Positions 1,268 to 43,309 of a stretch of 57,536 nt of DNA are shown one piece after another (the stretch's first letter is position 1; the number at the start of each line of letters is the position of its first letter). The stretch lies in the IMG/VR virus record IMGVR_UViG_3300036406_001093, positions 1-57,536 of that record; one strand, 5' to 3'. Source of the stretch: a virus. The position numbers and the translations under genes were made by a program. The notes under the pieces were generated by a model. That model saw only the letters and a list, made by a program, of their open reading frames with translations. It had not been told where the DNA came from and searched no databases.

Positions 1268-1886
1268 CCAGCACCTCCGCGAAGTTGGCTAAGACTTCAA
1301 ACTTCTCGCGTGCCGATTCGCTGACCTCGTCTCCCTTGCGGACGTTATCGCCGTGCCACATGGGCTGGAGGTTCCTCCAGTTGCAGACCGCCAGAAGTTG
1401 GGCCCGGTCGGTCAGGTCTGCTTGCGAGCACGGGTAGTCGTGGTCGATGCTCCATCGTCCATCGCCGACGCCGCGGTTGTTCCATGTCATCCCGGGCTGG
1501 AACTGCGACTCGATGTGGGCCTTGAGGTCGTCGACTGTGCAGCCGAGGTCACGGATGGCGGAGCCTGTCTTCTGCCCGTTCTTGACGGCGGAACACAGCC
1601 GGGAACGCAGCGAGCAGGCAACCGAGAAGGAGAGGTCGCCCCGCCGCCTCGCCTTGCTGCGTTCACGCCGCCGCTCCTTGGAGGCCGGGCTGGCGTATGA
1701 GCCGGAAGCCTTCTTCCTGTCCGGGTGCCGCGCGCGATACCTCGACTGGGCAGGCGCGAGCGCGTCGAGGTGCGCAGCCCACCGCTCGGGCGTGGCCTGC
1801 GCCTTCCGGGCCCAAAAAACGCACGGAGTCACCTTCCCCCGAAGGGCGGCGACCTGCTCGTCGAATGTTGGTGCGTCGGGGGTCAT
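1260..1886 (-). CDS. HNH-type endonuclease
   Basis: 208 residues. The C-terminal half has the layout of small phage or homing HNH nucleases: DLKAHIESQFQPGMTWNN, then WSIDHDYPCS (the DH pair of the metal site), then NWRNLQPMWHGDNVRKGD, where the first Asn and the Asn/Lys end fit the motif. The N-terminal half is very basic (RRRERSKARRR) and may bind DNA. The ATG overlaps the stop of the 51-residue gene upstream (ATGA). It lies between structural genes, which suits either a mobile homing-type nuclease or a packaging-associated HNH. I cannot tell these apart by eye. Confidence 0.8.
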   Translation of the reverse strand: MTPDAPTFDEQVAALRGKVTPCVFWARKAQATPERWAAHLDALAPAQSRYRARHPDRKKASGSYASPASKERRRERSKARRRGDLSFSVACSLRSRLCSAVKNGQKTGSAIRDLGCTVDDLKAHIESQFQPGMTWNNRGVGDGRWSIDHDYPCSQADLTDRAQLLAVCNWRNLQPMWHGDNVRKGDEVSESAREKFEVLANFAEVLGG

Positions 1887-9614: not shown

Positions 9615-10742
9615 TCAGACGCCCTTGGCGTCCACGAGTTTGAAGAAGTTGCGCGGCGAGACGAATCGCATGTTGGCGAGGACGGACGCGACGTATCTGT
9701 AACTTTGATTCGATTCCGAATAGTACGGCCCCTCGGCCGTGATCAACTGTCCCTCCATGCAGTGGAGGTACATGTTGGCGATCGACAGGCCGTAGCCGCA
9801 GCCCGTGGGCACCGCGTACTCCGTGCTGATCTCGACGCCGTCCTGCTCGAACACGTCCGAGAAGCCGTAGGACTTCAGGCCGTTCGTCCGCGTGACGATC
9901 GTGCGCTCCTTCGAGTCGAGCCGGTTCATGTAGTCGATGAACATGCGCCGGTCGAGCATCACGAGATCGATGGCCGACTCCTTCGAGTCATTGCGCTTCG
10001 ACTGGTGAACGCCCTCGCGGACGGCCTCGACGCACTGGTCCTTCCACGTCGGGGTCTCGCCCTTGAAGAACGAGGACGTGTAGTTGACGATGATCGGGGA
10101 GTAATAGTCATACTCCGGGTCGCACGCGACGTTCGGCCACGATCCCTTCTCCAACTGCGAGCCGGCTTCGGCGCCGAGTTCGGTGGAGAGCGTGGCGTAG
10201 GTGTCCTTCGCCCAGCAGAACGGGTCCTCGGCACGGGCAGCCTTCTCCTGCGCGCCGGTGTCGACGTTCACCGTGCCTTCGTACTGGAACATGGAGTCGA
10301 GGCCGTTGAACCGCAACTCGTTCCCGACGGCGTCCCCGTTGACGTACACCTCACGCGCGAGGTGCTGCTCCATCGACTCCTGAAGACGCGAGGCCATCTT
10401 CCCGGCGACGTTGATGAGCGCCTGCTGGCCGCGGTTCTCCAGCATCTCCCGACGGTAGATCGCGTCGGTGACCTGATAGCCCCGCCAATCGAGTTTGGCG
10501 GTCCTCCAGAGGTTCTGGCGCGCGAAGGTCCGAGCCGTCGTGCCGTCGTTTCCGCTCACGGGCTGATTGCGAAAACGAACCTCCCACGAGAAGCCCCTGC
10601 CCGACTGATTGGTCAGCACGTTGCCCGAACCTTCGAGCGCGGCGAACACGCGGAACTTGCGGAGGACGGCGATCTCCTCCTCGCGGAGGTAGTTGGTGAT
10701 CGTCGTCCCGATCGCGCGTGCCCAATCAGTGGCCGATGCCAT
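9615..10742 (-). CDS. Major capsid protein
   Basis: 375 residues, beginning MASATDWARAIGTTITNYLR. It follows a Gln-rich scaffold-like gene and lies upstream of the packaging genes, the classic place for the coat protein. The length suits an HK97-fold coat protein. Segments such as RGFSWEVRFRNQPVSGNDGT, IYRREMLENRGQQALINVAG and GYGLSIANMYLHCMEGQLI look like well-packed alpha/beta structure rather than low complexity. The identification rests mainly on synteny and size; I cannot confirm a specific coat family by eye. Confidence 0.8.
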   Translation of the reverse strand: MASATDWARAIGTTITNYLREEEIAVLRKFRVFAALEGSGNVLTNQSGRGFSWEVRFRNQPVSGNDGTTARTFARQNLWRTAKLDWRGYQVTDAIYRREMLENRGQQALINVAGKMASRLQESMEQHLAREVYVNGDAVGNELRFNGLDSMFQYEGTVNVDTGAQEKAARAEDPFCWAKDTYATLSTELGAEAGSQLEKGSWPNVACDPEYDYYSPIIVNYTSSFFKGETPTWKDQCVEAVREGVHQSKRNDSKESAIDLVMLDRRMFIDYMNRLDSKERTIVTRTNGLKSYGFSDVFEQDGVEISTEYAVPTGCGYGLSIANMYLHCMEGQLITAEGPYYSESNQSYRYVASVLANMRFVSPRNFFKLVDAKGV

Positions 10743-15142: not shown

Positions 15143-15517
15143 CTAGAATCCCCCCCAGTCCTCGGCGGAGGCGCCTGCCGTCTCGGGCTGGCGCTGGCCG
15201 CGCTTGGGCCACCGCAGCGAGATGCCGATGTCGTCGGCCATGACGGTGACGGCGGTGCGCTCGTTGCCGTCCTTGTCCTGATACTTCTCGACCTCCAGCC
15301 GTCCGGTGACGATCACCCGGTCACCCTGCTGGACCTTCTCGGCGACGAGCGCAGCCATCTCCTTGAAGCACAGCACGCTGACCCACGAGGTCACCGGCTC
15401 GCGGCCCTCCTGCTTCTTGGTGCTGGCGACCGAGAAGCGGCACATCTGCTCTCCGCTCTTGGTCGTCTTGAGTTCGGGCTGCTTGCCCACGTTGCCGTCC
15501 AGTTCGACGCGAATCAT
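15143..15517 (-). CDS. ssb: Single-stranded DNA-binding protein
   Basis: 124 residues, an OB-fold SSB of phage length. It starts MIRVELDGNVGKQPELKTT after ACGGAGG and has the characteristic SSB run: CRFSVASTKK, the SWVSVLCFKEMAALVAEKV strand/helix, GDRVIVTGRLEVEKYQDKDGNER and VMADDIGISL. The C-terminus EDWGGF resembles the acidic, Phe-ended tip through which SSBs contact partners. It would coat DNA during replication and during Erf/exonuclease recombination encoded at 33.7-35.2 kb. Confidence 0.9.
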   Translation of the reverse strand: MIRVELDGNVGKQPELKTTKSGEQMCRFSVASTKKQEGREPVTSWVSVLCFKEMAALVAEKVQQGDRVIVTGRLEVEKYQDKDGNERTAVTVMADDIGISLRWPKRGQRQPETAGASAEDWGGF

Positions 15518-15622
15518 CACTGACCTCCGTTGGGGTTGGGGAACGACCCGATCGTCGCGCGAGATGCGGCGCCCGTCAATGAGGTCACGGGAGAAAAATC
15601 GCGTGCCGATCACGAGATCCGA

Positions 15623-15640: not shown

Positions 15641-15676
15641 ACCCCGAGCAGACACTCCCGCCTCAAGGTGCCTGCC

Positions 15677-16447
15677 ATGATCCGCTCTCTGCTTCAGACT
15701 GTTGCGTTCGCCATCTCACTCGTCGCCGCGGCCGTGGTTGGTCTCGTGCTGGCGATCGGCGGTGCCTCGTACGCGCTCGGCGGCACGATCACCGGCACGT
15801 CGCAGTACTACGATTCGCCCGCCCGGGTCATGGACTCGGATGACTTTGCGGTGTGGGGCGGGCCCAGCCTCACGGCCAGTGCAGTCAAGGGCACGGGCCT
15901 GATCGACTACACGCTCACTGGCGTCGGCGCTGGTGAGTCGTCGCTCGCCAGCGGCAACTACGCGGCGGTGTTCGGGACCGGGACCTCGTGGACTCCGGGC
16001 GGCATCTACTGGACCGGCAACCAGAACGGCAAGGGCTTCACGCTCACGGTGCCGGGCGATGCCATGGAGGGGAGGACCCTCGGCGTGTGGGTCTTCACGA
16101 ACGGCCCGGCGGGCGGGCGACTGATCGCCAGCGGGGTCGGGTTTGACGGTAGCCCCGTGGGGATGGCCCCGATCCCGATCGAGCCGTACCGCCAGACGCT
16201 GCTGCTCCTCTCGGCCACCGGGCTGGAGTCGGGCTTGTCCGTCACCCTGACCAGCACGAGCAGCGTGTCCAGCGCCTCGGGGCAGTTCGTCCTCGGCGCC
16301 GCAGCGCTGACACCGCTCGCCGTCCCCGAGCCGGAGTACTGGCTGGCGGCTGTCATCTTGCTGTCAGGGGTCGGGGTCTACTGCGTGTTCATGTGGGCCT
16401 CGACCACGTTCATCCACAACGGCGACGGGGACAAGCGGGACCCGTAG
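15677..16447 (+). CDS. Exported protein with PEP-CTERM-like C-terminus
   Basis: 256 residues. The ATG at 15677 follows AAGGTG. The N-terminal hydrophobic segment (residues 5-35, FAISLVAAAVVGLVLAIGG) is a signal peptide or anchor. The middle is Gly/Ser/Thr-rich beta structure (GTSWTPGGIYWTGNQNGKG, SVTLTSTSSVSSASGQFVLG). Near the end comes LAVPEPEYWLAAVILLSGVG and further hydrophobic residues, the layout of a PEP-CTERM sorting signal: Val-Pro-Glu-Pro then a membrane span. The tail after the span (HNGDGDKRDP) is less Arg-rich than usual. Such signals are processed by host exosortase, so this may be displayed on or exported from the lysogen. A lone plus-strand gene, moron-like. Confidence 0.75.
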   Translation: MIRSLLQTVAFAISLVAAAVVGLVLAIGGASYALGGTITGTSQYYDSPARVMDSDDFAVWGGPSLTASAVKGTGLIDYTLTGVGAGESSLASGNYAAVFGTGTSWTPGGIYWTGNQNGKGFTLTVPGDAMEGRTLGVWVFTNGPAGGRLIASGVGFDGSPVGMAPIPIEPYRQTLLLLSATGLESGLSVTLTSTSSVSSASGQFVLGAAALTPLAVPEPEYWLAAVILLSGVGVYCVFMWASTTFIHNGDGDKRDP

Positions 16448-16699: not shown

Positions 16700-17212
16700 T
16701 TATAGGGGCTCGCAGCCGGGCAGGCACTTCTGGCCCGGGAGAAAGCGCTGGTCTGCGACGGGCGGGGGAGGGGCTGGCGTCGGGTCCTTGGCGGTCGGTC
16801 TCGGGCGGTGGCGATTGATCAGCATCCAGACCCGGACTCGGTACCACGCGCTCCCGTTCCGCTGCCTAGACCCCCATCGGTTCAGGGCCATGGCAATCCG
16901 CTCCGTGCTCCAGCCGTGCTCCCGGGCAAGCGTGGCGACACGCACTACGGCCATCTCGGCCGGGACCTCTTCGAGTTGCCCGTCACGGCGCACCGAGTAC
17001 CCGTACGGCGGCCTGCCGACCCAGACGCCTTCCTCCCGGCAGCGACTGATCCCCTGCTTGATGAGGGAACCCGGAGCCATGTTCCGGTTGGTGTGATGCG
17101 CCCTGCCGTGGCACCGACCGCAGAGCGGCACCGTCTTCGTGCCACCGCGGGAGCGGGGAACGACGTGGTGGTCGACCTCGGCGGGGGAGCCGCACTCGAA
17201 GCACTCGGGCAT
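16700..17212 (-). CDS. HNH nuclease fused to a recombinase-type domain
   Basis: 170 residues. The N-terminal 40 residues are an HNH/zinc unit: CFECGSPAEVDHHVVPRSRGG then LCGRCHGRAHH, with four cysteines and the DHH core. Residues about 52-130 read like the DNA-binding Recombinase domain of large serine recombinases: GVWVGRPPYGYSVRRDGQL, PAEMAVVRVATLAREHGWST then ERIAMALNRWGSRQRNGSAW and VRVWMLIN. No serine-recombinase catalytic domain is present. The tail is Pro-rich with two cysteines. It stands at the edge of the control region, divergent from the early operon. Confidence 0.75.
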   Translation of the reverse strand: MPECFECGSPAEVDHHVVPRSRGGTKTVPLCGRCHGRAHHTNRNMAPGSLIKQGISRCREEGVWVGRPPYGYSVRRDGQLEEVPAEMAVVRVATLAREHGWSTERIAMALNRWGSRQRNGSAWYRVRVWMLINRHRPRPTAKDPTPAPPPPVADQRFLPGQKCLPGCEPL

Positions 17213-22836: not shown

Positions 22837-23955
22837 ATGTTCAGTCACCCCATGTGGTTCGCGTTCGTTGTCATGCAGACCATGATCCCCACCCTGCTGA
22901 TCGGCCCGCCGGGCTGCGGCAAGACGGCCTCGATCATGGCCCTCTCCCACGCCATCAAGCGGCGGTTCGTTCCGCTGATCGGCAGCCAGTGCTCGCCCGA
23001 GGACGTGTCCGGCCTGCCCGTGCCGGACATGGTGAAGTTCCTGTGTCGCATGATGCCCATGTCGTGGTCCGAGGCGCTGCTCACCCCGGGTGGGCTGCTC
23101 GCCCTCGACGAGTTCGGCAACACGCCCCCGTCGGTGCATGCCTCGCTGCTCACCGTGATTCAGGACAAGAGGGTCGGCGACCTGACCCTCGATCTGGACA
23201 CGATGATCGTGGCGATGATGAACCCGCCGGAGCAGTCGCCCAACGGCACGCCGCTGTCGCTGCCCACTGCCAATCGGTTCTTCATCACCGAGTGGAAGAA
23301 CGACACGGCAGCGTGGATCGACGGGCTCGCAGCCGGGTGCGAGTGGGCTGCCCCGCAGATGCCCATCCTGCCCGACGACTGGAAGACTCGCGTCCCCCGG
23401 TGGGGTGCGCTGCTCGCCACCTATCACCGCCGGTTCCCCGGCCGTGACAACGTGCTGCCGAAGGACGACACGATCCTCCGCTACCCGACCGAGCGGTCGT
23501 GGAGGAACGCCGTTCACTGCCTCGCTGCTGGCGAGGCTGCGGGTGCGGACATGTGGACCGACCAGTCCAACGTCCGGCTCATGGCAGCCGGGTGCGTCGG
23601 TGATCAGGCGGCCGACGAGTTCTGCGAGTGGAAGAGCACGTTCGACGTGGCCGATCCGCTCGACATCCTCGACGGCAAGGTGACGTTCAAGCACCGCGAC
23701 GAGCGGCCGGACATCACGATGACCGTGCTCGCTGCTCTCGCCTCGACGGTGAGCACCGAGTCCACGTTCACGCCGGACCGCTGGGATGCGGCGGCCATGA
23801 TCTTCGGTGAGGTCGGCAAGACCAGCCACCCGGAGATGGCGCTCCGCTACACGCGGCTGCTGCTCGATGCGACGGCGAAGTTCAAGCACGCCCCGTCGGC
23901 GAAGGTGCTCAAGCCCCTCGTCGAAATGAACGCGGCGATGAAGGTGGCCGGCTGA
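22837..23955 (+). CDS. MoxR-type AAA+ ATPase
   Basis: 372 residues. Walker A GPPGCGKT (residues 23-30) and Walker B LLALDEF (87-93) with the sensor-type segment VAMMNPPEQSPNGTPLS and ANRFFITEW soon after; the NPPE..G pattern is typical of MoxR-family ATPases. It lacks an N-terminal extension. MoxR proteins remodel target proteins together with a VWA partner, and the next gene encodes one. ATG after CAGGAGG. Confidence 0.85.
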   Translation: MFSHPMWFAFVVMQTMIPTLLIGPPGCGKTASIMALSHAIKRRFVPLIGSQCSPEDVSGLPVPDMVKFLCRMMPMSWSEALLTPGGLLALDEFGNTPPSVHASLLTVIQDKRVGDLTLDLDTMIVAMMNPPEQSPNGTPLSLPTANRFFITEWKNDTAAWIDGLAAGCEWAAPQMPILPDDWKTRVPRWGALLATYHRRFPGRDNVLPKDDTILRYPTERSWRNAVHCLAAGEAAGADMWTDQSNVRLMAAGCVGDQAADEFCEWKSTFDVADPLDILDGKVTFKHRDERPDITMTVLAALASTVSTESTFTPDRWDAAAMIFGEVGKTSHPEMALRYTRLLLDATAKFKHAPSAKVLKPLVEMNAAMKVAG

Positions 23956-23966
23956 CTGTTTCGGGA

Positions 23967-23997
23967 GGGGCGGCTCGTCACGGTGGCGGGCCGCCCC
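23967..23997 (+). other. Early hairpin 7
   Basis: GGGGCGGC pairs with GCCGCCCC around a 15-base loop, in the junction between ATPase and VWA genes. No early element copy precedes it. Confidence 0.5.
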
Positions 23998-24026
23998 ATC
24001 CCGACCAACACACAAGGGACACAGCG

Positions 24027-25643
24027 ATGGACGCGATGCGAGCGAAGGTTGCCCAGTTCAGGACGGCGGTGAAGAAGATCCTCCCGTACTTCACGGGCGA
24101 GGTCTACGGCATGATCGCCATCGAGGAGAAGCGCGTCGGCACGATGGCGGTCGACGAGCAGGGGCGGATGTACTACGCCCCCGAGTTCGTGCGTCGGTGC
24201 TCGATCGAGCAGGGCCGGTTCACTGTCTGCCACGAGACGCTGCACGTTGCGCTCGGCCATGCTCGGCTGGCCCGCAAGATTCTCGGCGACAACCCGACGC
24301 AGTCCATGCTCAAGGCGTGGAACTACGCCGCCGACTGCGTGGTCAACCAGATTCTCGGTGCGTACCTGCACGAGGCCCCGGGCGAGGACGTGCTCGGCCC
24401 GGGTGCCACGATCGTGACGCACCAGACGCTCGGCCTGCCGCCGCGGCTGACCATCACGCAGTACTACGACCTGCTCTGCAAGCAGGAGGAGCAGCAGCAG
24501 GAAGAGCGCCGCCAGAAGCAGCGGCAGCAGCAGAAGGACAACGACCCGGACCAGCGTGGCGAGGGCGAGGACGATGACACGGAGGACGACGAAGATGAAG
24601 ACGTGGAAGGGTCTGGTGAAGGTGAGCCTGATGATCGGGACGGCGAACCTGACGAGCAGGGAGGTGGTGATGGTGGGGAACAGGACGTTCCTCACGATCC
24701 TTCTGAGGGCGATGGCGAGGGTGGCGAAGAGGACGAAGGCGACGACGACGGTGAAGGTGAAGGTGGCGCTCGTCCCGGCGAAGGAGGTGCCGAACGGGAC
24801 GGTGGTGCTGATCGCCCGTCGCAAGATGGCGGCGAGGATTCGTCGGACGCTGAAGGCGAAGGGTGCGACGGCGACCCGGCCGACGACGGTGGGGACGGGT
24901 CGTGGTCTCCGACTGGCGGCAGCGGCGCTGACGGAGTGCCTCGCGGATACGAGGCCGAGCGAGACCCCTCGTGGGCTGACCGCGAGTACTCGCTCGCCAA
25001 GCAACTCGAAGCCGCCATCGAGGAAGCCGAGCGCTCGTCGCCGGGCTCCGTCCCGGGCGAGTTGAAGGCGGCGGTCGGCCTCCGGCTACGGCCACAGCCT
25101 GACCCGTACGACGCTCTGCGTGCGTCCGTGGCTCGGGCTGTGGCCTCGCCGGTCGGTGCCCCCGACTTCACGCTGAAGCGGTTCAGCCGCAGGCAGCAGC
25201 CGGGCATGCCGCGCCTGCGTGGCGTGAACAAACTCACGCCCAACGTCGTGGTCCTGCTCGACACGAGCGGGTCGATGGGCTTCGGCTGCCCGGGCTACGA
25301 GCGAGCGGAGCGTGCCCTCGACGTGATCGCGAAGGGCATACGGAAGTTGAAGTCCGTGCGTGTCATCTGCTGGGACACGCAGAAGCACAGTGCCCGCATG
25401 GTGCAGTCCATGCAGGGCTTCGAGGTGCAGGGTGGTGGCGGCACCGACATGGGGCAGGCCATCGAGACGATCGACAAGGAACTCCGGCCCGACGCCATCC
25501 TGATGGTGACGGACTTGGAGACCGGCTGGTGTGAGCGGAAGCCTCGGGCCCGTGTCGTGATCGCTGCGACCGAGGCGCCGAGCGAGTACTACCCGACCCC
25601 AACGTGGGCGACGGTGATCGATCTGACGAAGGGAGGTGCGTGA
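24027..25643 (+). CDS. Metallopeptidase-like plus VWA domain protein
   Basis: 538 residues. The N-terminal domain has HETLHVALGH (69-78), an HExxH zinc site as in DUF2201-type putative metallopeptidases. A long acidic, Gly-rich linker follows (about 180-310, DEDEDVEGSGEGEPDDRDGE style). The C-terminal domain is VWA-like: VVVLLDTSGSMG supplies the DxSxS metal-adhesion site, with GGGTDMGQAIETID the conserved Thr/Asp and ILMVTDLETGW. It is the natural partner of the MoxR ATPase next door. The 3' end overlaps the following ATG by one base. Confidence 0.85.
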   Translation: MDAMRAKVAQFRTAVKKILPYFTGEVYGMIAIEEKRVGTMAVDEQGRMYYAPEFVRRCSIEQGRFTVCHETLHVALGHARLARKILGDNPTQSMLKAWNYAADCVVNQILGAYLHEAPGEDVLGPGATIVTHQTLGLPPRLTITQYYDLLCKQEEQQQEERRQKQRQQQKDNDPDQRGEGEDDDTEDDEDEDVEGSGEGEPDDRDGEPDEQGGGDGGEQDVPHDPSEGDGEGGEEDEGDDDGEGEGGARPGEGGAERDGGADRPSQDGGEDSSDAEGEGCDGDPADDGGDGSWSPTGGSGADGVPRGYEAERDPSWADREYSLAKQLEAAIEEAERSSPGSVPGELKAAVGLRLRPQPDPYDALRASVARAVASPVGAPDFTLKRFSRRQQPGMPRLRGVNKLTPNVVVLLDTSGSMGFGCPGYERAERALDVIAKGIRKLKSVRVICWDTQKHSARMVQSMQGFEVQGGGGTDMGQAIETIDKELRPDAILMVTDLETGWCERKPRARVVIAATEAPSEYYPTPTWATVIDLTKGGA

Positions 25644-26429: not shown

Positions 26430-26795
26430 ATGACCGGCTACTACTGGCTGCTGTGCATTCCCGAGGACGAGAAGCCAGCGATCAAGCGAACGCTGCACGC
26501 CACGGGCGAAGAGGCACTGGCCCTCGCCCTGAAGTACGTGCGTCGTTCGGGACGAAAGCGATTCAAGAAGTACGGGGCGACCTGCCCGGCGCTGATCTAC
26601 AAGGTGACCGTCGAGGGCAGGACCGCCAGCGATATCGCCTACGAGGCGGCGATGTACGAGGCTGTGCGTCGATCGCTCGCCTACCCCAAGGCGAGCAGGG
26701 AGATCGACCGAGTGTTGCAGAACCAAGCGGACGCCTTGTGGCTCCACTTCCTGCGCCACCCAAAGAAGAAGGCCCCACCACCGGAGGACGAGTGA
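26430..26795 (+). CDS. Hypothetical basic protein
   Basis: 121 residues starting MTGYYWLLCIPEDEKPAIKR, helical and basic (VRRSGRKRFKKYG, HFLRHPKKKAPPP). It ends one base inside the next gene's ATG, so it is coupled to the serine recombinase and might be a directionality or accessory factor. That is only a positional idea. Confidence 0.6.
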   Translation: MTGYYWLLCIPEDEKPAIKRTLHATGEEALALALKYVRRSGRKRFKKYGATCPALIYKVTVEGRTASDIAYEAAMYEAVRRSLAYPKASREIDRVLQNQADALWLHFLRHPKKKAPPPEDE

Positions 26796-27577
26796 TGCCA
26801 ACGTGCTACGGATACGGACGTGCCAGCACCGACAAGCAGGAGTTGACCGAAGAGGTGCAACTCAAGTCGGTGAAGCGGCAGTACGACACGCTGCTCAAGC
26901 CCAAGGGCGTGCAGTGGGGCGGGTTCTTCTACGACGCTGCGGTCTCGGGCGGCAAGCCCTTCACCGAGCGGCCAGAGGGACTGAAGATGTGGATGCACCT
27001 GATGCCCGGCGACTATGTGGTCACGCACCACAGCGACCGGGCGTTCCGCGACACAGCCGACGGCCTGCGAACGGCCGCCATGTTCCGTGCCCGGGGCGTG
27101 ACGCTCGTCATGCCGGACATCCCGCACGACCTTGAGACTGCGGACGGAGAGATGATGGCGACCATTCAGTTCGCGTTGAATCTCCGCGAGCGCCGCAAGG
27201 TAGGCGAGCGTACGTCGGCTGCGATGCGGGTGCTGGCCGAGCGAGGCGAGCGGTTCGGCGGCTCATCGCAGGGCTGCCCGATCGGCTGGATGTGGGGTGG
27301 CACTGGCCTCGCCCCCGATCAGGACGAGCGGGACAAGGTCGAGCAGATGGCGAAGTGGCACGCCGAGGGGCTGTCGCACGAGCGGATCTCGATGCGGGTC
27401 ACGAGCCGGCCGTACCAGTGGCGGCGTCGGAACCGCGTGCCGAAGTTCGGCAACTGGTCTCGTCGGTATGTGGCCCTTGCTCTTGAGGCTCGTCGCCTTG
27501 GCTACCCGAAGGTGTATCTGAATAGCCCTCGACGCAAGAGCGCAGCAGGACGAACGCATCGAGCAGCCTCGACTTGA
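26795..27577 (+). CDS. Serine recombinase (resolvase/invertase type)
   Basis: 260 residues. The catalytic domain shows CYGYGRASTDKQEL with the nucleophilic Ser in the RAS-T context near residue 11, the second Arg/Asp site in HHSDRAFRDT, and the long E-helix region (QFALNLRERRKVGERTSAAM). After it comes only a short DNA-binding part (GWMWGGTGLAPDQDERD, SHERISMRVTS), so it is smaller than large integrases. The phage also has a tyrosine integrase, so this enzyme may invert or resolve another segment. Its 3' end overlaps the convergent sigma-like gene by 179 bases. Confidence 0.85.
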   Translation: MPTCYGYGRASTDKQELTEEVQLKSVKRQYDTLLKPKGVQWGGFFYDAAVSGGKPFTERPEGLKMWMHLMPGDYVVTHHSDRAFRDTADGLRTAAMFRARGVTLVMPDIPHDLETADGEMMATIQFALNLRERRKVGERTSAAMRVLAERGERFGGSSQGCPIGWMWGGTGLAPDQDERDKVEQMAKWHAEGLSHERISMRVTSRPYQWRRRNRVPKFGNWSRRYVALALEARRLGYPKVYLNSPRRKSAAGRTHRAAST

Positions 27578-34370: not shown

Positions 34371-35227
34371 CAGTCGATCTCCTTGAGGGACCACGCGGGG
34401 AACTTGAGTTCGTGAATGTGGCCGTACCCGGCGGGTAGCCAGTTGCCGGTCTCGCGCCGCACCTCGATCTCTTCGAGGTCATTGGCGATCCACTGCACGC
34501 ATCGCTCGACGAGCGCGTCAGGGAGACACACCACCTGCACTTCGTGCGGGGGCGTCGTGGACATGGCGACGAACACCATGCCGCCGTGGCCTATGCCAGC
34601 GGCCTTGGCGATCTCTCCGTAGAGGGCCGCTTGGTAATGGTAGCCGTGCGAGAGGACCGACGAACTCCACGTCTCAAGCGGGCGTGCATCTCGACACGTC
34701 TTCCAATCGAGCACGGTGCCGAGTTCGGTCGCCGCATCGAAGCGGCAGCGGAGCAGGTGGCCGTCGTCGCGATGGTGGATCGCCGACAACTCGTGCCATG
34801 CGATCTGCTCGTACAGATTGACGGCGGCAGAGTTCCTGAAGAACTCGGCGAGGATCGCCTCGCAGGTGGCGAGGTCGGCCGGGCTGGCGAGCGGCAGGTC
34901 CGGGTCCTGATCGGCCACCCACGCCTTGGCCGCCGCCGAGGAGGAGAGTCCACCGGAGGCGGTCACGTACTCGGCGGGGATTTCCGAGAGGTGACCGCGG
35001 TATTTCCCGGGCCCGAACTCAAGGGCGGCATGAACCACCGACCCGAGTTGCAATGCCCCCGAAGAGAAGGGAGACTGGGATCGGGTGACGTAGCGCTGGT
35101 CGTACCAGACCGGGCCACGGTGCCTGAAGTCCCACAGCGGGGACTTCGAGGGGCATGGCAGCCCGTGGTAGACGCGGTTCGGGAGACCTTCAACCAGAAG
35201 GGTCTGCCCGGCCGCCAATGTTTCCAT
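34370..35227 (-). CDS. RecE-like / DUF3799 PD-(D/E)XK exonuclease
   Basis: 285 residues; ATG at 35227 is preferred because longer frames run through the tRNA fragment. Visible: LLVEGLPNRVYHGLPCPSKS, ALQLGSVVHAALEFG (motif I region), RCRFDAATELGTVLDWKTCR (the PD...DxK core), and HYHYQAALYGEIAK (Gln-rich motif). These are the marks of phage exonuclease VIII-like nucleases that make 3' overhangs for an annealing protein. It is followed directly by the Erf gene, forming a recombination pair. Confidence 0.82.
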   Translation of the reverse strand: METLAAGQTLLVEGLPNRVYHGLPCPSKSPLWDFRHRGPVWYDQRYVTRSQSPFSSGALQLGSVVHAALEFGPGKYRGHLSEIPAEYVTASGGLSSSAAAKAWVADQDPDLPLASPADLATCEAILAEFFRNSAAVNLYEQIAWHELSAIHHRDDGHLLRCRFDAATELGTVLDWKTCRDARPLETWSSSVLSHGYHYQAALYGEIAKAAGIGHGGMVFVAMSTTPPHEVQVVCLPDALVERCVQWIANDLEEIEVRRETGNWLPAGYGHIHELKFPAWSLKEID

Positions 35228-35245
35228 GGCGGCCGGGAGGTCGGC

Positions 35246-35299
<54 letters not shown>

Positions 35300-35333
35300 T
35301 TCCTCGCCGCCGTCCCCACGAAAGGCGTCGGCC

Positions 35334-36254
35334 ATGTCTTCGATACTTGTGTCGGATTCTGTCATCGGTATGCTGCCGGAAAAGGACGCAGTGTACAGGG
35401 GTACAGGTATGAGGTCAATGGGAGAGGTAGCGGAGAACTACCTGCTGGGAAGGGACGTCTCGAAGGGGTACGCCTCGAACATCCGACGGACGGCGGCGAA
35501 GATGGACGCCGCGGGCATCACCCCCGCGAGCATCGATGGCGCGAACGTCAACATCTGGCTCTCCTCCTTGAGAACGTCTGGTCTGTCGCCCGTCAGTATA
35601 CGGTCTGAGCGACGGAGCGCAATCACCATCTGGCGGCACGGGATCGAGATCGAGGTGATCGCGAATCCCATACGCCACGTCGTCCAGCCCAAGGTCCCTC
35701 GGCGGGTCACTCGTGCCTTCCGACGCTCCGATCTTACTGCCGCTGTCAATAGGGTCACGGAAAAATATTCGACCGAGAAGTTCAAGGGCAGCGGCTGTCC
35801 AAAGGGGCTGTGGCTGGTGACGTGGACCATGTTCGTCTACGAGACCGGCGCGCGATTCACAGACGCCTACGAACTCCGTGGCGAAGCGCTTGTCCACGGG
35901 GGAGTGGCATGGACCGCGAGCAAAACCGGCCTGCCCGTGATCAAGCGGCTGTCGCAGGGCACCGCGGAACGCTTGCAGCAACTGCTGGCGCTGTCGCAGG
36001 ACGGCACCGTGTTCCGCTGGGCCGTATCTCGGCGCCACGCTTTCGCTGCGATCAGGAAATCGTACGAGGAATCGGGCCTGACGGGAGGCCGGACCCAATG
36101 GCTGCGGCGCAGCGGGGCGACCCACGCAGAGATGGACCGTAAGGGCGCCGCAATGGAGTACCTCGCCCACGCCACGCCCGGGCTGGCCGAGACGAACTAC
36201 ATCGACTACACGCAGTTGCTCGACCGGCTGGCCGCCCCGAAGCCGCTCGGGTAG
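35334..36254 (+). CDS. int: Tyrosine recombinase (integrase)
   Basis: 306 residues from the ATG at 35334; an upstream extension would translate through the tRNA fragment. An N-terminal core-binding-like domain (MGEVAENYLLGRDVSKGYAS) is followed by the catalytic domain: Arg I in ETGARFTDAYEL, Lys in ASKTGLP, the HxLR-type box as QWLRRSGATHAE (Gln replaces the usual His), His in YLAHATPGLAE and the nucleophile Tyr in NYIDYT. It should join attP at the tRNA-Pro fragment to the host tRNA gene. It diverges from the exonuclease gene. Confidence 0.88.
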   Translation: MSSILVSDSVIGMLPEKDAVYRGTGMRSMGEVAENYLLGRDVSKGYASNIRRTAAKMDAAGITPASIDGANVNIWLSSLRTSGLSPVSIRSERRSAITIWRHGIEIEVIANPIRHVVQPKVPRRVTRAFRRSDLTAAVNRVTEKYSTEKFKGSGCPKGLWLVTWTMFVYETGARFTDAYELRGEALVHGGVAWTASKTGLPVIKRLSQGTAERLQQLLALSQDGTVFRWAVSRRHAFAAIRKSYEESGLTGGRTQWLRRSGATHAEMDRKGAAMEYLAHATPGLAETNYIDYTQLLDRLAAPKPLG

Positions 36255-36585: not shown

Positions 36586-39500
36586 TCAGCCGGCCGCCTG
36601 CCTCGGCTGCCGCTTGGTGCGGGTGGACTTGAATCGCTTGGCCCTGCCCTCGGGCGTGGACGGCGACTTGGCTGCCTTGCTCTCGTCGCGCATCTGCTTC
36701 TCGATCACCTTCTTGCGGGCGACCAGTGCTTGGAACTCCGGCGGCAGGGTGGCGACCACCTCGTCCGGCAGCGTTGTGCGCGAGAAGGATCGTGCCCCCG
36801 GGGTGCGACCAATGATCTGGTCGATGGCGGCCAGTTCGTCGCGGCGCTTCTGGTCCTCGTCCACGAAGTATCGCCGCACTGGCGAGACCGTGTTGAACAG
36901 AGCGTTGACGGCCGATTCGCTGCGGCTCTCGACGCGAGGGTCGAGCGCGGTGCCGACGAACCCGGTAACTCGGGAGGCCCCGGGGATCGCGAGATCGAGT
37001 GCGTGTCGCGCAAGGGGCGAGATCCTCGCGTGCTTGTCGCCCGTCACGCCCATCGCGACCTTGTCCCATTGAGATGGCACGCGGCCGATGGGCTGCTTCG
37101 TGTGCATGTCCACGCCGAACGCCGCCTCCGCAACGGTTCGCAGGATCGGCGACATTTGCGATGCGGCGCTCTGGACGGTCGCCATCCCCGATGCGCTCAA
37201 CATATCGGACACGCCCGCTGCACCCTCCATTGCCGACGGACGGTAAGCGACCATGTTGAGGGCACTCGTGCCCGGGATGTCGATGCCTCCGAGGACAGCC
37301 TGCATGCCCGATGGCGCCAGCCCGATGTTGAAGTAGTCCGGCACGCCCATGTCCGAGAGCGCCTTGGGGTCGATTCCGAATCCGCCTCGATCCCGGTAGG
37401 ACTGCGGCAGGTAGGAGTCTTGGTCGTCGCCTTGCAGCCGGTCGAAGGCGCGGAGCGTTTGGCTGTATGGTCCGCCCGGGTTGAGCAGCGCCTCCTTCGC
37501 GGCGTACTGACCAGAGCGAACGGTGTACGAGAGGAACGGGATCGCGAGGTCGCGCACCCGCTTCTCGATATCGGTCAGGCTCTCGTAGTCGACATGGATT
37601 TCCTTGAGGCGGCGAGCCGCCTCCTTCGGCGACACCCCTTGGGCGAGCAGGGCGTTGTACCCCGACAGCCTCGTGTGTGCGTCGGACCACTCGGCCGCGT
37701 CCTCGAACTTCTTGAAGATCGGGTTGTTCGTCGTTCGCCGCACGATTGCATCGGGCGCCGTAGACGTAATCCCGAGCGGGTCGCTCGCCCAACTCGCCGC
37801 GTACTGCCCCCACGTCCTCGGCCGATTGCCGATAGACACGCCCTTGATCCCGTAGAAGTCGAGCGAGTTCTTGTCGGTGGCGATGTCGGTGACAGTCTTC
37901 GCGTTGGGGATCGGCACGTTGAGCGGCGTGGACCCGGGCAAGACTTCGAGCAGCGCCTTGCCGGACCTGTCGCCGATCTCCCGCTCGACGCTGCCCATGC
38001 CCTTGAGCACGCCGGCCTCGGCGAGGTCGGACAGGTATTGGCTCAACATCTTCTCGTCGTTGCCGACCGTGGAGTAGGCCGGCAGCGATCGGATGTAGTC
38101 CAGCGCGGCAGAGTGGTTGCCGTTCAGCAACGTCTGCGAGTGGTACATGCTAGTGGACAGCGCGATCGGATCGCCAACCGTGACGACGTTGCCGATGGCG
38201 CCACTGAGCCAGTCGCGCGTGACCCGAGAGGGCCATGCGAGGACCTGCGACTTGAACGCGCGAGTCATCTGCGACAGGAACTCGCCGATCATGCCCTTCT
38301 CTTTGGGGCTGGCGAGCAGGTTCTGCGTCCTCGTCAGGTTGTCGAGGAACGACTCCGGCACGAAGTACTGCCGAAGGTCAACGTCGTCCGGGCTGACGGC
38401 ATTGCCTTTCTGCGCCAGTTTGGCTGCGATGGCTTCACGCGCACGAGCGGCGGCGCCACCCGGGAGTTGGCTGCCCGCAGTGCGCTGCGACTTCAGGCCG
38501 ACGCGCCCGAGCGCCTCGTGCAGCGGGACCACCTTGCCCCCAAGCACGTCGCCCGCATTGCCCGCGATGGCCCGACTGACCACGGCATCACCGAGGGCCT
38601 CGCCAGTGGCGACTGCCTTCATGCGCCCCGTGGTGTATCGCGCCACCGCCTCGGCCGGGTGGTTGCCGAACACCACCGGGTCGGCCGGGTCGAGTTGATT
38701 CAGGAATCGGGCGAGCGCCTTAGTTTGGCCGCGTGTCACTCGCGGCGTGACGAGGCTCGGGTCAAGGACGCCGACGGTGTTGCGCTGCGCTTTGGTGAGC
38801 CCGGCCGCCTTTGCGGCGGCGACCCGGCCCGGGTACTGCGCGGCCTCGCTTCCGGGCACCGTCCGGTAGTACTCGCCGTTGGGATCGTGGATGTCCGACA
38901 TGAGCCAGTTGGCTACGTCGTTGTCGGACATAGTCGGCTTGCCGGTCTTGGGGTCGAGCCGGCCGCCGAGGAACTCCTTCTTCTTGGCGTAGTGCCGCAG
39001 TTGGTCGATGCCGCCCGGGAGTTGCAGGAACTTCTTTCGCGCGATCTGGTCGCCAGTGACGAGATCGTAGTACGCGCCCCTGCCGCCGCCCTTGCCGAGG
39101 ATCGTGCGATCGAGGGCGGTGGTCATCATGTACGGACGGTAGGCCGCGCCGAACTTGTGCCGCAGTTGGTGGGCGTTGATGCCCGCGTCCTTGCTCTGAG
39201 AAAGCAGTTCCGCACGGAGCGTCGGCCAGACGCTCGCGAACTCCTTGATCTTCGGCGTGTTCTCCACGAAGTCGATGTCACGGGCAGTGGCAGCCACGCC
39301 TTCGACGTATCGGTCGATCGCCTCGATGGCGTCGGCCCCGTTGGCGTCCCTGATGCCGGTGCGCCGAGCCACGTCGTCGGGCACCTCGGCGAACTGAATC
39401 AGTTGCGCAATGTCACCGGACTTGCGCGCCCCGAGAGAGGCGCCCTTACCGCCGGCCGAGTTGATCTCAATGGCCGTGGCCTGCGCGATCGGGTCGATGA

Positions 39501-40341
39501 CGCCGCCGGCTAGTTTGTTGCTGACGCTGTGGGCGATCCGGCCGACCGGAGACCATCGCACGTTCTCGCCGATTGCATCGAAGAAGCGAGCCGAAGCATC
39601 GCCCACATTCGCGCCAAACGGATCACCGACTGTATCCGCGAATCCCCACGAGCCAGATAGCGGGGTGTCGGCAATGTCGTCATAGTTCCACCTCTTCTGC
39701 CGGAGAAACCCGTCGAGGTGCTGCTGGATTCTCGCAGCCTGATCAGGGTCCTTCACCTGATCGACGAGTTGCCGAAGCGTGGTCTGACGCTGCGCCGCCC
39801 GCTGGCCGACGAGCGGTCGCGCCGTGTGCTCGACGAAGTCGTCGATCGAGTCTCGCCCGAGTGCCTTGAGCGTGCGCTGCGCCCGGCCGGGCAGGGTCGG
39901 CACCAGCCCCCTGACGGCTCGCTGCTGGAGTTGCCGGCTCGCGACCGACGCCGCGTCATCGAGCAGGCCGATAGCACGGGCGGCCTTGCCGCCTGCGGTG
40001 AGTGCCTTGAGCGGCCCGGAGACGAACGTCAGCGGATCGGTGGCAACGCCGAGCGCCGTGCCCAGTACGAACTTGCCGGCAGGGTTGGTCACCCCGGTGG
40101 CTCGCTCGGCGATGTCGTCGGCACTGACTCGCTGCCTCGCGTCGAGCGGGTTGTTCCATTGACCGTCCATCCCGTAGTCGATGACGGACCGGACGGCAGC
40201 GGCGGGCGTGTCGATGTACCAGAGTGCGTTACTGATGCCCCGCGGGGTGCGGCCAGCGACACCAGTCTGCGCCGGGTTGGCCGCGGCGCTCGCGTTGCGG
40301 GCGGCGATGATCTCTTCCGCCGTGTCGAACGCCAGACCCAT
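36586..40341 (-). CDS. Giant virion protein (1251 aa), probable ejection protein
   Basis: 1251 residues, last gene of the late operon. Begins MGLAFDTAEEIIAARNASAA; helical throughout with Ala/Gly-rich stretches (GTALGVATDPLTFVSGPLKA) and a Lys/Arg-rich end (FKSTRTKRQPRQAAG). No enzyme motif is clear. The size and position beside two other giant proteins match internal virion or DNA-ejection proteins of short-tailed phages (like T7 gp14-16 by analogy, not by sequence). It may form the ejection channel. Confidence 0.65.
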   Translation of the reverse strand: MGLAFDTAEEIIAARNASAAANPAQTGVAGRTPRGISNALWYIDTPAAAVRSVIDYGMDGQWNNPLDARQRVSADDIAERATGVTNPAGKFVLGTALGVATDPLTFVSGPLKALTAGGKAARAIGLLDDAASVASRQLQQRAVRGLVPTLPGRAQRTLKALGRDSIDDFVEHTARPLVGQRAAQRQTTLRQLVDQVKDPDQAARIQQHLDGFLRQKRWNYDDIADTPLSGSWGFADTVGDPFGANVGDASARFFDAIGENVRWSPVGRIAHSVSNKLAGGVIDPIAQATAIEINSAGGKGASLGARKSGDIAQLIQFAEVPDDVARRTGIRDANGADAIEAIDRYVEGVAATARDIDFVENTPKIKEFASVWPTLRAELLSQSKDAGINAHQLRHKFGAAYRPYMMTTALDRTILGKGGGRGAYYDLVTGDQIARKKFLQLPGGIDQLRHYAKKKEFLGGRLDPKTGKPTMSDNDVANWLMSDIHDPNGEYYRTVPGSEAAQYPGRVAAAKAAGLTKAQRNTVGVLDPSLVTPRVTRGQTKALARFLNQLDPADPVVFGNHPAEAVARYTTGRMKAVATGEALGDAVVSRAIAGNAGDVLGGKVVPLHEALGRVGLKSQRTAGSQLPGGAAARAREAIAAKLAQKGNAVSPDDVDLRQYFVPESFLDNLTRTQNLLASPKEKGMIGEFLSQMTRAFKSQVLAWPSRVTRDWLSGAIGNVVTVGDPIALSTSMYHSQTLLNGNHSAALDYIRSLPAYSTVGNDEKMLSQYLSDLAEAGVLKGMGSVEREIGDRSGKALLEVLPGSTPLNVPIPNAKTVTDIATDKNSLDFYGIKGVSIGNRPRTWGQYAASWASDPLGITSTAPDAIVRRTTNNPIFKKFEDAAEWSDAHTRLSGYNALLAQGVSPKEAARRLKEIHVDYESLTDIEKRVRDLAIPFLSYTVRSGQYAAKEALLNPGGPYSQTLRAFDRLQGDDQDSYLPQSYRDRGGFGIDPKALSDMGVPDYFNIGLAPSGMQAVLGGIDIPGTSALNMVAYRPSAMEGAAGVSDMLSASGMATVQSAASQMSPILRTVAEAAFGVDMHTKQPIGRVPSQWDKVAMGVTGDKHARISPLARHALDLAIPGASRVTGFVGTALDPRVESRSESAVNALFNTVSPVRRYFVDEDQKRRDELAAIDQIIGRTPGARSFSRTTLPDEVVATLPPEFQALVARKKVIEKQMRDESKAAKSPSTPEGRAKRFKSTRTKRQPRQAAG

Positions 40342-40344
40342 TGG

Positions 40345-43302
40345 TCACTCCACCGCCGCAGAGTCGTCGGTTCCCACCTCGGTTGCCGGCGAAGAGGCGC
40401 CCCGGAAGCGGTCGTACCACTTGGCCGCCACCTGTTCCTTGACGCGGCGGGTGCTCGCTAGAGCCACGAACTCGTTCTTGCTGAGAGGAGGCGGAGGCGT
40501 GGCATTGGCGGCCTTGGCGCTCTCGACCTCCGCCTGCCTGCCGATGACGATCCTCCAGAAGTAGTACGCCTCTGCCGAGCCCGGTGCGATGGTGCCGCCC
40601 GCAAGCCTCTGCCACGCCCGGTCTCCGAGAACCGAGATCACGCGGTCCCGCGAAACCCCCGTCGGGTCCTTGGGGTCTGCCATGCCCTGCGACTCAAGCG
40701 CGTGCTGGCCGGCGGCAATCATGGTGTCGAACGAAGAGCCCGGCGGCAGCGAGTCGACGGCGTCGTAGACAGAGACAGTGAGCGAGTCCGGCTCCTTCTC
40801 CTCTTCACGCACCCGGCCACCGGCACGGGCGGCCTCGGCTGCGGCCTGATGTCGTGCGGCCTCCGTCGCGGCGTGCGCGTTCAGTTCCGTCTGCGCCATG
40901 TCATGCTCGCCGGCAAGCGTGTAGGCGTGGGCACGCTGCGCCGGCGTTGATTCCGGGTTCCGCAAGATGGCCTGCGCCTCCTTGCGGTGCATGGCGGCCC
41001 GGGATTCGGGGGCCATCCGCGACTCCCGGTGGCGGTTCGCGGCCTCGGTGGTGCGGAGGTGGTGCTGGTGGGCCGTCGCTACGGTCCGCTCTCCGGCGCT
41101 CTCCGCGGCGTCGGACACGACGTCGAAGTCGACTCCTTGGCTCTCGGCGAACTCTTGCAGCGATACCCCGGCGTCGATGTGTGCGCCGACGTGGCGACGG
41201 TATTGCATGACGGCCGACTTGTACTTGCGGTCCATCATCGCAACGACGCTGGGCGGCGGAGGCGTGATGACGATGTCCTCGTCCTTCACGCCGTTCGCCC
41301 TCTGGTCCGCGTATTGTTCGTCAGCCTGCTTCTGCCACTCGTTGTAGACCCGGGTGGTGAACTTATCGACCCGAGCCTGTTGTGCGTTTCGTTCACGCGC
41401 CTCGGTGATGTGGGCCGGCTCCTGCTGCCGTGCCGGCTGTGCGGCGGGAGCAGCCACGCCAGCCGCCTGCTCGGCTGCCTGCTTTGCCTTGGGCGGCACG
41501 TCCGCAACAGGGCCGGGCTCCGCGCTCACGCCGAGCATGGCCTTGTTGTGCTTGTCGACCTCGAACTTCAGCGCCGCGTCACGCTCCACGCCACGACGCG
41601 CAGCGAGCCGCGCTCCGCCCTTGCCGTCCGGACCGCTGTGCTCGGGGTACGAGGTCTCCGGCGCGAATCGGTTGTCGTACGCACCGATGCCGTGCTTCTT
41701 GTCGTAGTCTTCCTTCTCGTCCTCGAACGCGACACGCTCGTTGTGCTCGCCTACCCGGCCGCGGAACTGCCGCAGAGAGTTCCTGTCGAGCGAGTCGTAG
41801 TCGATGGAGACGCGCTGCCCCGTGGAGGTGCGGACCTTCACCGAGTTGGTCTTGGGATCGTAGGACTCGATCTCCCCGTCGAACACGTACTTGCCGCCCT
41901 TGGTGGCGATGCGGCTCATCCCCGGCGCGGGCGGCTTGCGCGGGTCAGCGTTGGGCGCTGGGCCTCGGGGAGCCGCCGGCGGGATTGCGCCCGGGCGACC
42001 ATCCCCGGCCGCGGGCGGAGGAGGAAGGCCCGGCCCGACCGGCCGCCGCGGTGCTGGTGCCTTCCCCTTCACGCCGATCGTCGGATTCGGCACCATGGCG
42101 AGGGGCGTCTCCGTCCCGGCCTCTGGAGCGGGGATGACGCGGTTCGCGGGCTCCGCGCCTTCGATCCCGCCAGCGAATCGGCCGCCGCCCGGAACCGCCC
42201 ACCGGGCCGCCGGGGTGTTTTGCAGTGCTTCCACCGCAAGCGGATGTGCCTTCGAGTTGGGGTCGTTCGCGACGATGATCCGCAGTTGCTCGCCAGACCA
42301 AGCCAAAGGGTCGGGCATCCCGGCCGCGTCGGCTGCATCGACAAGTTTGGTGTAGAGCCAATCCTTGCCGATCACATGCATGTCTTGTCTGGTCCGCTCG
42401 CGCGGATCGACGGGACGCGCAGCCTGCCGAGCGGGCGCTTGGGGGGCTGGCGCGTTGGGCGCTGGCTTCGGCGGAGCGGGCTGGCCGGCTACGGGCTGTG
42501 CAGCGGGCCGTGCGGCTGGCCGTGCGGCTGGCCGTGCGGCGGGCCGCGCGGCTGGCGCCTCGTCGCCCGGGCGTGGCGTGTCGTACGTGAGCACACCCGT
42601 CTGCCCCGAGAACGGATTGGGGTTGTCCTCGACCTGACCGCGGGGGGCGGTGGCAAGGACGTGCTGCTGCTGGTCGGGCGGCAGGCGGTTCAGTGGGGCG
42701 GTCACTCCCCGCCGAGCCTTCGGGTCCCAGATACGCACTCGGCCGGACTGCGGATCGTAGGCCGATGCTTGTCCGTTGCCCTGCCACGACCAGTCGCCAA
42801 CCGTGACGGTGTACGGGCGAGGCCCAGCGGCAGCGGGCTGTCGCACCTCCGCCGCAAGTCCACGAACGGTGTCCTCCTGCGTGGCCGGCTTCGCTGCCGG
42901 GCGCGGGGCCTGCGGGATGTTCTGTGGAAACAGCGCGTCCGGCGGGTGCAGGTCGAACTTCGGCTTGGCGTTGTAGCCCGGCTTCTTCGTCGGGTCGCCG
43001 CCCGTCGTGGGGTAGAGATTCCTGCCGGCCGGGTAGTCGATCGAGTCTTCGAGGCTTACGGGGGCAGTCACGAGCGGCAGCCCGGGGTGCATCTGCCCCA
43101 TGCCAGCCTGCATGCCAAGGGTCAACTCACGCATGCGGTCGCTGTCGCCCGCGTTCTTGGGGCTCCACTCCTCCAGACGCACCTGCGGCTTCGGGGCCGA
43201 GAGGTCCTCGGCCGTGCCGTCCTCGTTGTAGGACATGACGCGGGGCCGCCCCTCACGCTCGGACTTCATCCTGCGAATGCGGTCTTCTGCCGTCTCTGCC
43301 AT
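40345..43302 (-). CDS. Giant Pro/Ala-rich virion protein (985 aa)
   Basis: 985 residues. Starts MAETAEDRIRRMKSEREGRP, then is Pro/Ala/Arg-rich and disordered-looking. Around residue 255 are four PAAR repeats (ARPAARPAARPAARPAAQP), and another Pro-rich zone follows at about 395-450 (GLPPPPAAGDGRPGAI). The C-terminal 350 residues are helical (HKEAQAILRNPEST, ATEAARHQAAAEAARAG). It sits 3 bases from the next giant gene. Probably a flexible internal virion protein; no family named. Confidence 0.6.
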   Translation of the reverse strand: MAETAEDRIRRMKSEREGRPRVMSYNEDGTAEDLSAPKPQVRLEEWSPKNAGDSDRMRELTLGMQAGMGQMHPGLPLVTAPVSLEDSIDYPAGRNLYPTTGGDPTKKPGYNAKPKFDLHPPDALFPQNIPQAPRPAAKPATQEDTVRGLAAEVRQPAAAGPRPYTVTVGDWSWQGNGQASAYDPQSGRVRIWDPKARRGVTAPLNRLPPDQQQHVLATAPRGQVEDNPNPFSGQTGVLTYDTPRPGDEAPAARPAARPAARPAARPAAQPVAGQPAPPKPAPNAPAPQAPARQAARPVDPRERTRQDMHVIGKDWLYTKLVDAADAAGMPDPLAWSGEQLRIIVANDPNSKAHPLAVEALQNTPAARWAVPGGGRFAGGIEGAEPANRVIPAPEAGTETPLAMVPNPTIGVKGKAPAPRRPVGPGLPPPPAAGDGRPGAIPPAAPRGPAPNADPRKPPAPGMSRIATKGGKYVFDGEIESYDPKTNSVKVRTSTGQRVSIDYDSLDRNSLRQFRGRVGEHNERVAFEDEKEDYDKKHGIGAYDNRFAPETSYPEHSGPDGKGGARLAARRGVERDAALKFEVDKHNKAMLGVSAEPGPVADVPPKAKQAAEQAAGVAAPAAQPARQQEPAHITEARERNAQQARVDKFTTRVYNEWQKQADEQYADQRANGVKDEDIVITPPPPSVVAMMDRKYKSAVMQYRRHVGAHIDAGVSLQEFAESQGVDFDVVSDAAESAGERTVATAHQHHLRTTEAANRHRESRMAPESRAAMHRKEAQAILRNPESTPAQRAHAYTLAGEHDMAQTELNAHAATEAARHQAAAEAARAGGRVREEEKEPDSLTVSVYDAVDSLPPGSSFDTMIAAGQHALESQGMADPKDPTGVSRDRVISVLGDRAWQRLAGGTIAPGSAEAYYFWRIVIGRQAEVESAKAANATPPPPLSKNEFVALASTRRVKEQVAAKWYDRFRGASSPATEVGTDDSAAVE
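42499..42563 (-). repeat. PAAR-type tandem repeat inside giant protein
   Basis: Five near-identical 12-base units (GGCCGTGCGGCT in plus orientation, with variants) encode Pro-Ala-Ala-Arg repeats. Such tandem DNA repeats can change number between isolates. Confidence 0.7.
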
Positions 43303-43309
43303 TGGTCAC

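Follow-up and report, generated by a model that had tools for sequence, protein, structure and literature searches.

Can a bacteriophage encode cargo for the surface-sorting machinery of its host? The question is raised by one gene of a 57,536-bp virus record, analysed here over its whole length (the window), which a first-pass annotation had taken to encode a PEP-CTERM-like sorted protein. The gene, whose product we call P0001, is divergent from that for the single-strand DNA-binding protein (ssb), and its transcription runs away from ssb (Table 1). Its hexamer coding score and a GC3 of 0.88 are gene-like. The longest ORF starts at TTG 15530 and comprises 305 aa, but we favour ATG 15677 as the start because it is preceded by the element AAGGTG, which is retained in the related record L002; the remaining 5′ intergenic DNA of L002 has diverged from the window. 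A promoter scan found nothing, and a weak phrog_24811 match (E 0.003) was set aside. The adjoining gene (16700-17212, minus strand) encodes an HNH domain fused to a serine-integrase recombinase-like segment (phrog_95), and this fusion gene is conserved in L006, L013 and L015.

Table 1. Positions of the features discussed, in window coordinates.
Feature	Position	Strand	Evidence or remark
Major capsid protein gene	9615..10742	-	phrog_9953; query for relatives and likely host
ssb gene, single-strand DNA-binding protein	15143..15520	-	phrog_44, E 5e-31; synteny anchor in relatives
Shine-Dalgarno-like AAGGTG, 5′ of ATG 15677	15665..15670	+	kept in L002
P0001 CDS, 256 aa, PEP-CTERM-like phage protein	15677..16447	+	ORF, orthologues, dN/dS
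Predicted signal peptide, residues 1-35	15677..15781	+	alignment; helix 2-34 in AlphaFold2 model
Predicted beta-sandwich, residues 36-214	15782..16318	+	CBM-like jelly roll in predicted models
VPEP motif, residues 216-219	16322..16333	+	invariant in family
C-terminal hydrophobic span, residues ~223-241	16343..16399	+	hydropathy; helix 221-249 in model
Short tail STTFIHNGDGDKRDP	16400..16444	+	net charge -1, no Arg cluster
attP-like 52-bp 3′ part of tRNA-Pro(CGG), adjoining integrase	35249..35300	-	ARAGORN
Tyrosine integrase, likely start ATG 35334	35334..36254	+	phrog_1, E 4e-14 on ORF 35226-36254

The elements on which the earlier proposal was built, a signal-like N-terminus, a Gly/Ser-rich middle region and VPEPEYW followed by a membrane span, are all present in the ORF. 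The N-terminus, MIRSLLQTVAFAISLVAAAVVGLVLAIGGASYALG followed by G, displays an n-region, an h-region and an A-x-[AG] site, and a signal peptide is thus predicted, with cleavage between A33-L-G35 and G36 (ASYALG/G). AVPEPEYW occupies residues 215-222 and precedes the C-terminal span, whose mean Kyte-Doolittle hydropathy is 2.18 over 19 residues. AlphaFold2 models of P0001 (pLDDT 62) and of its homologue in L073 (pLDDT 69) each show a beta-sandwich with one helix at the N-terminal and one at the C-terminal end. The best structural matches of the L073 model are CBMs (CBM61, Z 10.3 over 134 residues, rmsd 2.7; CBM16, Z 9.3), whereas the P0001 model alone retrieves mixed jelly rolls with Z up to 8.6, which may reflect just a common arrangement. 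The predicted jelly-roll fold thus resembles that of CBM61, CBM16, CBM4 and CBM22, but at about 10% identity and with moderate model confidence (pLDDT 62-69) the likeness in fold shows no function. P0001 has no sequence match to any CBM family in NCBIfam or Pfam.

By the published description, a PEP-CTERM domain combines PEP, a membrane span and a basic cluster, and most proteins with the domain carry signal peptides (PMC1569441). P0001 displays these features except for the basic cluster, and it also lacks the model score: the profile search that had been recommended, with TIGR02595 and PF07589, returned no match, nor did anything else in NCBIfam or Pfam. For P0001, PEP-CTERM-like describes an architecture that its phage gene family conserves, not membership of a curated model. 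The tail without an Arg cluster, recognised from the outset as the weak point, is borne out by STTFIHNGDGDKRDP with its net charge of -1; across the ssb-linked clade the tails carry net charges of 0 to -5, and some are 20-30 residues long. Compared with the PEP-CTERM/exosortase (EpsH, Xrt) system, P0001 shares a signal peptide, a Pro-Glu-Pro near the C-terminus where a span is predicted to meet the periplasm, a body little like known families and a likely host lineage with exosortase; it differs in being phage-encoded, in its acidic tail without a basic cluster and in matching no model. From composition, a protein has a chance of about 1e-4 of carrying [VI]PEP at the border of a C-terminal span. 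For the 155 ORFs of these phages that have such a span, 0.045 cases are expected and nine were seen, but as most of the nine are orthologues related by common descent, they count as only some three independent lineages.

Orthologues of P0001 were found in seven further records (L002, L003, L009, L013, L015, L021 and L073) at 36-90% identity. L002 and L003 carry the same gene as the window (90% identity); in L009, L013, L015 and L021 the orthologue lies beside ssb (36-41% identity), and in L073 it has, as judged by eye, a BppU-like gene on one side and tail-type genes on the other. None of the orthologues has lost the A-x-[AG] signal-peptidase site, VPEP or the span, but the sequences of signal peptide, span and tail diverge. 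In the eight-row alignment, which reaches down to 36% identity, VPEP and A33 (position -3 of the signal-peptidase site) are invariant, and VPEP is kept even in a relative of 26% identity. The body of P0001 is under purifying selection (window versus L002: dN 0.021, dS 0.112, dN/dS ~0.19). In the same comparison AVPEPEYWLA is unchanged and span plus tail reach a dN of 0.47. P0004 and the L073 protein are 76% identical in the body, 19% in the signal peptide, 100% in PEP and 7% after it. A fixed motif amid fast-evolving sorting segments is the pattern expected of a sorting signal that is recognised. Codons 225-256 of the window gene and its L002 counterpart differ strongly at synonymous as well as non-synonymous sites amid nearly identical flanks, which suggests recombinational replacement at the sorting signal.

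The same phage group encodes further proteins of this type. In L020, a phage with a capsid protein of 84% identity, the position adjacent to ssb encodes P0008 (MKKFLCLLAILFASPAAAG...AVPEPVTIVLLAAAAPLLYAWKKRSN), which passes TIGR02595 with 18.2 bits against a cut-off of 16 (20.9 bits in a second search) and, unlike P0001, has a basic cluster after the span (YAWKKRSN). P0008 is a bona fide TIGR02595 protein at the locus of P0001 in a related phage. Between P0008 and ssb, L020 also contains a 120-aa ORF (1276-1638, minus strand) with the PEP-CTERM-like end PIPEHSSMSLLIFAITVLALANIPRWVRKRLENR and no N-terminal signal peptide, perhaps a truncated relative. In G602 (L093; the phage of L022), P0010 is encoded directly after the integrase gene, downstream of a strong Shine-Dalgarno sequence, AGGAGGTGATC; its C-terminal end, PIPEPSSLMLTLMGAFLVRLFFVTAGRTFTAGL, includes IPEPSS, a span and Arg, and it scores 12.1 bits, under the cut-off. 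P0005 scores 10.1 bits against the same cut-off of 16. The contig L029 starts with the end of a protein comprising IPEP, a span and WRPHVHR. This fragment, P0004, P0008 and P0010 resemble the PEP-CTERM family NF038129 in the last beta-strands and the PEP, but their matches, with 10-21 bits, lie below the cut-off of 65, and they are not members. P0001, P0008 and P0010 have a D-[FY]-A-[VL]-W-G patch in common; as hhalign of the P0001 family, P0008 and P0010 covers the patch region only, and with low probability, it does not establish common ancestry of the three types. The long records G611 and G612 yielded no such PEP-CTERM-like gene.

The first-pass annotation had regarded the phage as a prophage, and a temperate lifestyle is indeed supported by the predicted tyrosine integrase and the adjoining attP-like block of tRNA-Pro. 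This 52-bp block is matched in 355 of 392 planctomycete genomes (at 100% in G216), and the best planctomycete matches nearly all end at the same base, the form expected of attP. Since the comparison covered planctomycete tRNAs only, it speaks for temperate life better than for the identity of the host. Besides the tyrosine integrase, the window has a serine recombinase (26453-27577, plus strand; phrog_95/125). Elsewhere it carries genes for a MoxR-type AAA ATPase and, next in order, a DUF2201 metallopeptidase/VWA protein (22837-25643, plus strand), a pair that is usually cellular, and a row of three giant ORFs (1251, 985 and 1151 aa; 36586-46765, minus strand), the 1251-aa one having no Pfam match and no relative in isolate phages.

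A search with the capsid protein retrieved 42 viral contigs as relatives. A capsid alignment scanned over 84,980 species genomes identified two loci only, both in planctomycete MAGs (G001 and G002). One locus is a 55-kb contig whose portal and terminase are 50-57% identical to those of the window and whose structural genes are collinear with it. A more distant prophage module occupies 124-144 kb of a 148-kb contig in the planctomycete G562, and host genes, ligD among them, lie at 60-80 kb of that contig; a GroES-like (Cpn10) gene (L080, 18955-19413, minus strand) lies at the edge of this module. On about 60% capsid identity and the binning of the MAGs, the phages probably belong with Planctomycetota hosts, from which the host of the exact window phage is extrapolated. 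Both MAGs carry exosortase together with PEP-CTERM proteins, about 20 in G001 and four in G002. The G001 enzyme passes the XrtU model and the G002 enzyme the general exosortase model, and the expected ACSG, R and H positions were located by eye in both. The G562 genome also carries exosortase. As 62 of 149 sampled planctomycetes do so, its presence in all three phage-bearing genomes is mild support only. The first-pass annotation had named the combination of no model hit and a host lineage lacking exosortase as evidence against its proposal; P0001 has no model hit, but these host genomes do contain the enzyme. A sorting system borne by the phage itself is rejected, as there is no exosortase gene within the phage.

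On the basis of these results, we favour, with modest confidence, the view that a temperate Planctomycetota phage has, as cargo, a gene for a protein with the build of a substrate of its host's PEP-CTERM/exosortase system. P0001 would be exported by Sec, lose its signal peptide at the A-x-[AG] site and remain anchored in the inner membrane by its C-terminal span, VPEP lying on the periplasmic side. We read export, the motif and the host enzyme from sequence, and infer that the XrtU-like host exosortase would recognise P0001 and release or transfer it; the CBM-like beta-sandwich would then come to lie on the surface of the infected or lysogenic cell or in its exopolysaccharide. The benefit would most likely be altered or masked surface glycans, leading to superinfection exclusion or changed aggregation. 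Remodelling of the host surface by the phage, as first suggested, may thus be the outcome.

Because the acidic tail of P0001 is atypical, the main rival is an uncleaved, membrane-anchored form: a PEP-CTERM descendant that is no longer an exosortase substrate. It would be bitopic in the inner membrane, hold its beta-sandwich in the periplasm, for example for superinfection exclusion, and have a longer acidic tail that acts in the cytoplasm. The acidic and sometimes long tails of the clade, the missing model match of P0001 and the low score of P0005 are all consistent with this form. A mere anchor, however, would not need VPEP, which is invariant in orthologues of only 36-41% identity although all of the sequence behind it diverges, and we regard the anchored form as rather unlikely, though worth serious consideration. 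Chance resemblance of the PEP motif in an ordinary secreted protein would account for the missing match, and the motif is short; given its estimated frequency per protein, its invariance in the family and a protein passing the curated model at the same locus, coincidence appears very improbable.

Other functions for a phage protein of this build were weighed as well. The position of the L073 homologue near tail-type genes, and the frequency of CBM-like folds in tail fibres, would suit a component of the virion or of adsorption, with a tail-fibre-like carbohydrate-binding domain and terminal hydrophobic segments that serve assembly. In the other phages with context, however, the gene is not near tail genes: it diverges from ssb or, in the case of P0010, follows the integrase gene. 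The L073 protein, too, keeps the signal-peptidase site and VPEP. These points make a virion role improbable. A periplasmic domain with a C-terminal span also brings to mind a lysis protein, either a unimolecular spanin or holin-like. Such a role is scarcely credible and was rejected, because no member has an N-terminal lipobox cysteine; a signal-peptidase I site is found instead, the gene lies outside a recognised lysis cassette, and the beta-sandwich domain is large.

The phage genes for PEP-CTERM-like proteins resemble lysogenic-conversion (moron) genes for envelope proteins in being sporadic, position-variable cargo of temperate phages, one of them beside an integrase. They differ in that their products use a C-terminal exosortase-type signal, not a lipobox or a plain membrane anchor. 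A profile of the P0001 family found no full-length match in 199 genomes of the family of G001 and in 392 planctomycetes, and two weak partial matches of 56 residues (E ~0.001). P0001, P0008, P0009, the capsid protein and the portal were all without a relative in isolate phage genomes, and a canonical CTERM peptide had no match there in a search limited by the low-complexity filter. Phages are not mentioned in the founding PEP-CTERM paper (Haft et al. 2006, PMC1569441), and the open-licence literature contained no report of phage-encoded PEP-CTERM proteins.

PEP-CTERM/exosortase sorting is widespread among environmental Gram-negative bacteria. The broader proposal, for which we see the case as evenly balanced, is that temperate phages of Planctomycetota supply the host exosortase with substrates from their own genomes, an undescribed virus-to-host route of surface sorting, and that the acidic-tailed PEP signal of one clade is still recognised. 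If true, these phages would reprogramme the surface or exopolysaccharide of the planctomycete lysogen with a sorting enzyme that belongs to the host itself. The family, with canonical members and acidic-tailed members in which VPEP is intact, would then provide natural test substrates for what exosortase needs beyond the PEP motif.
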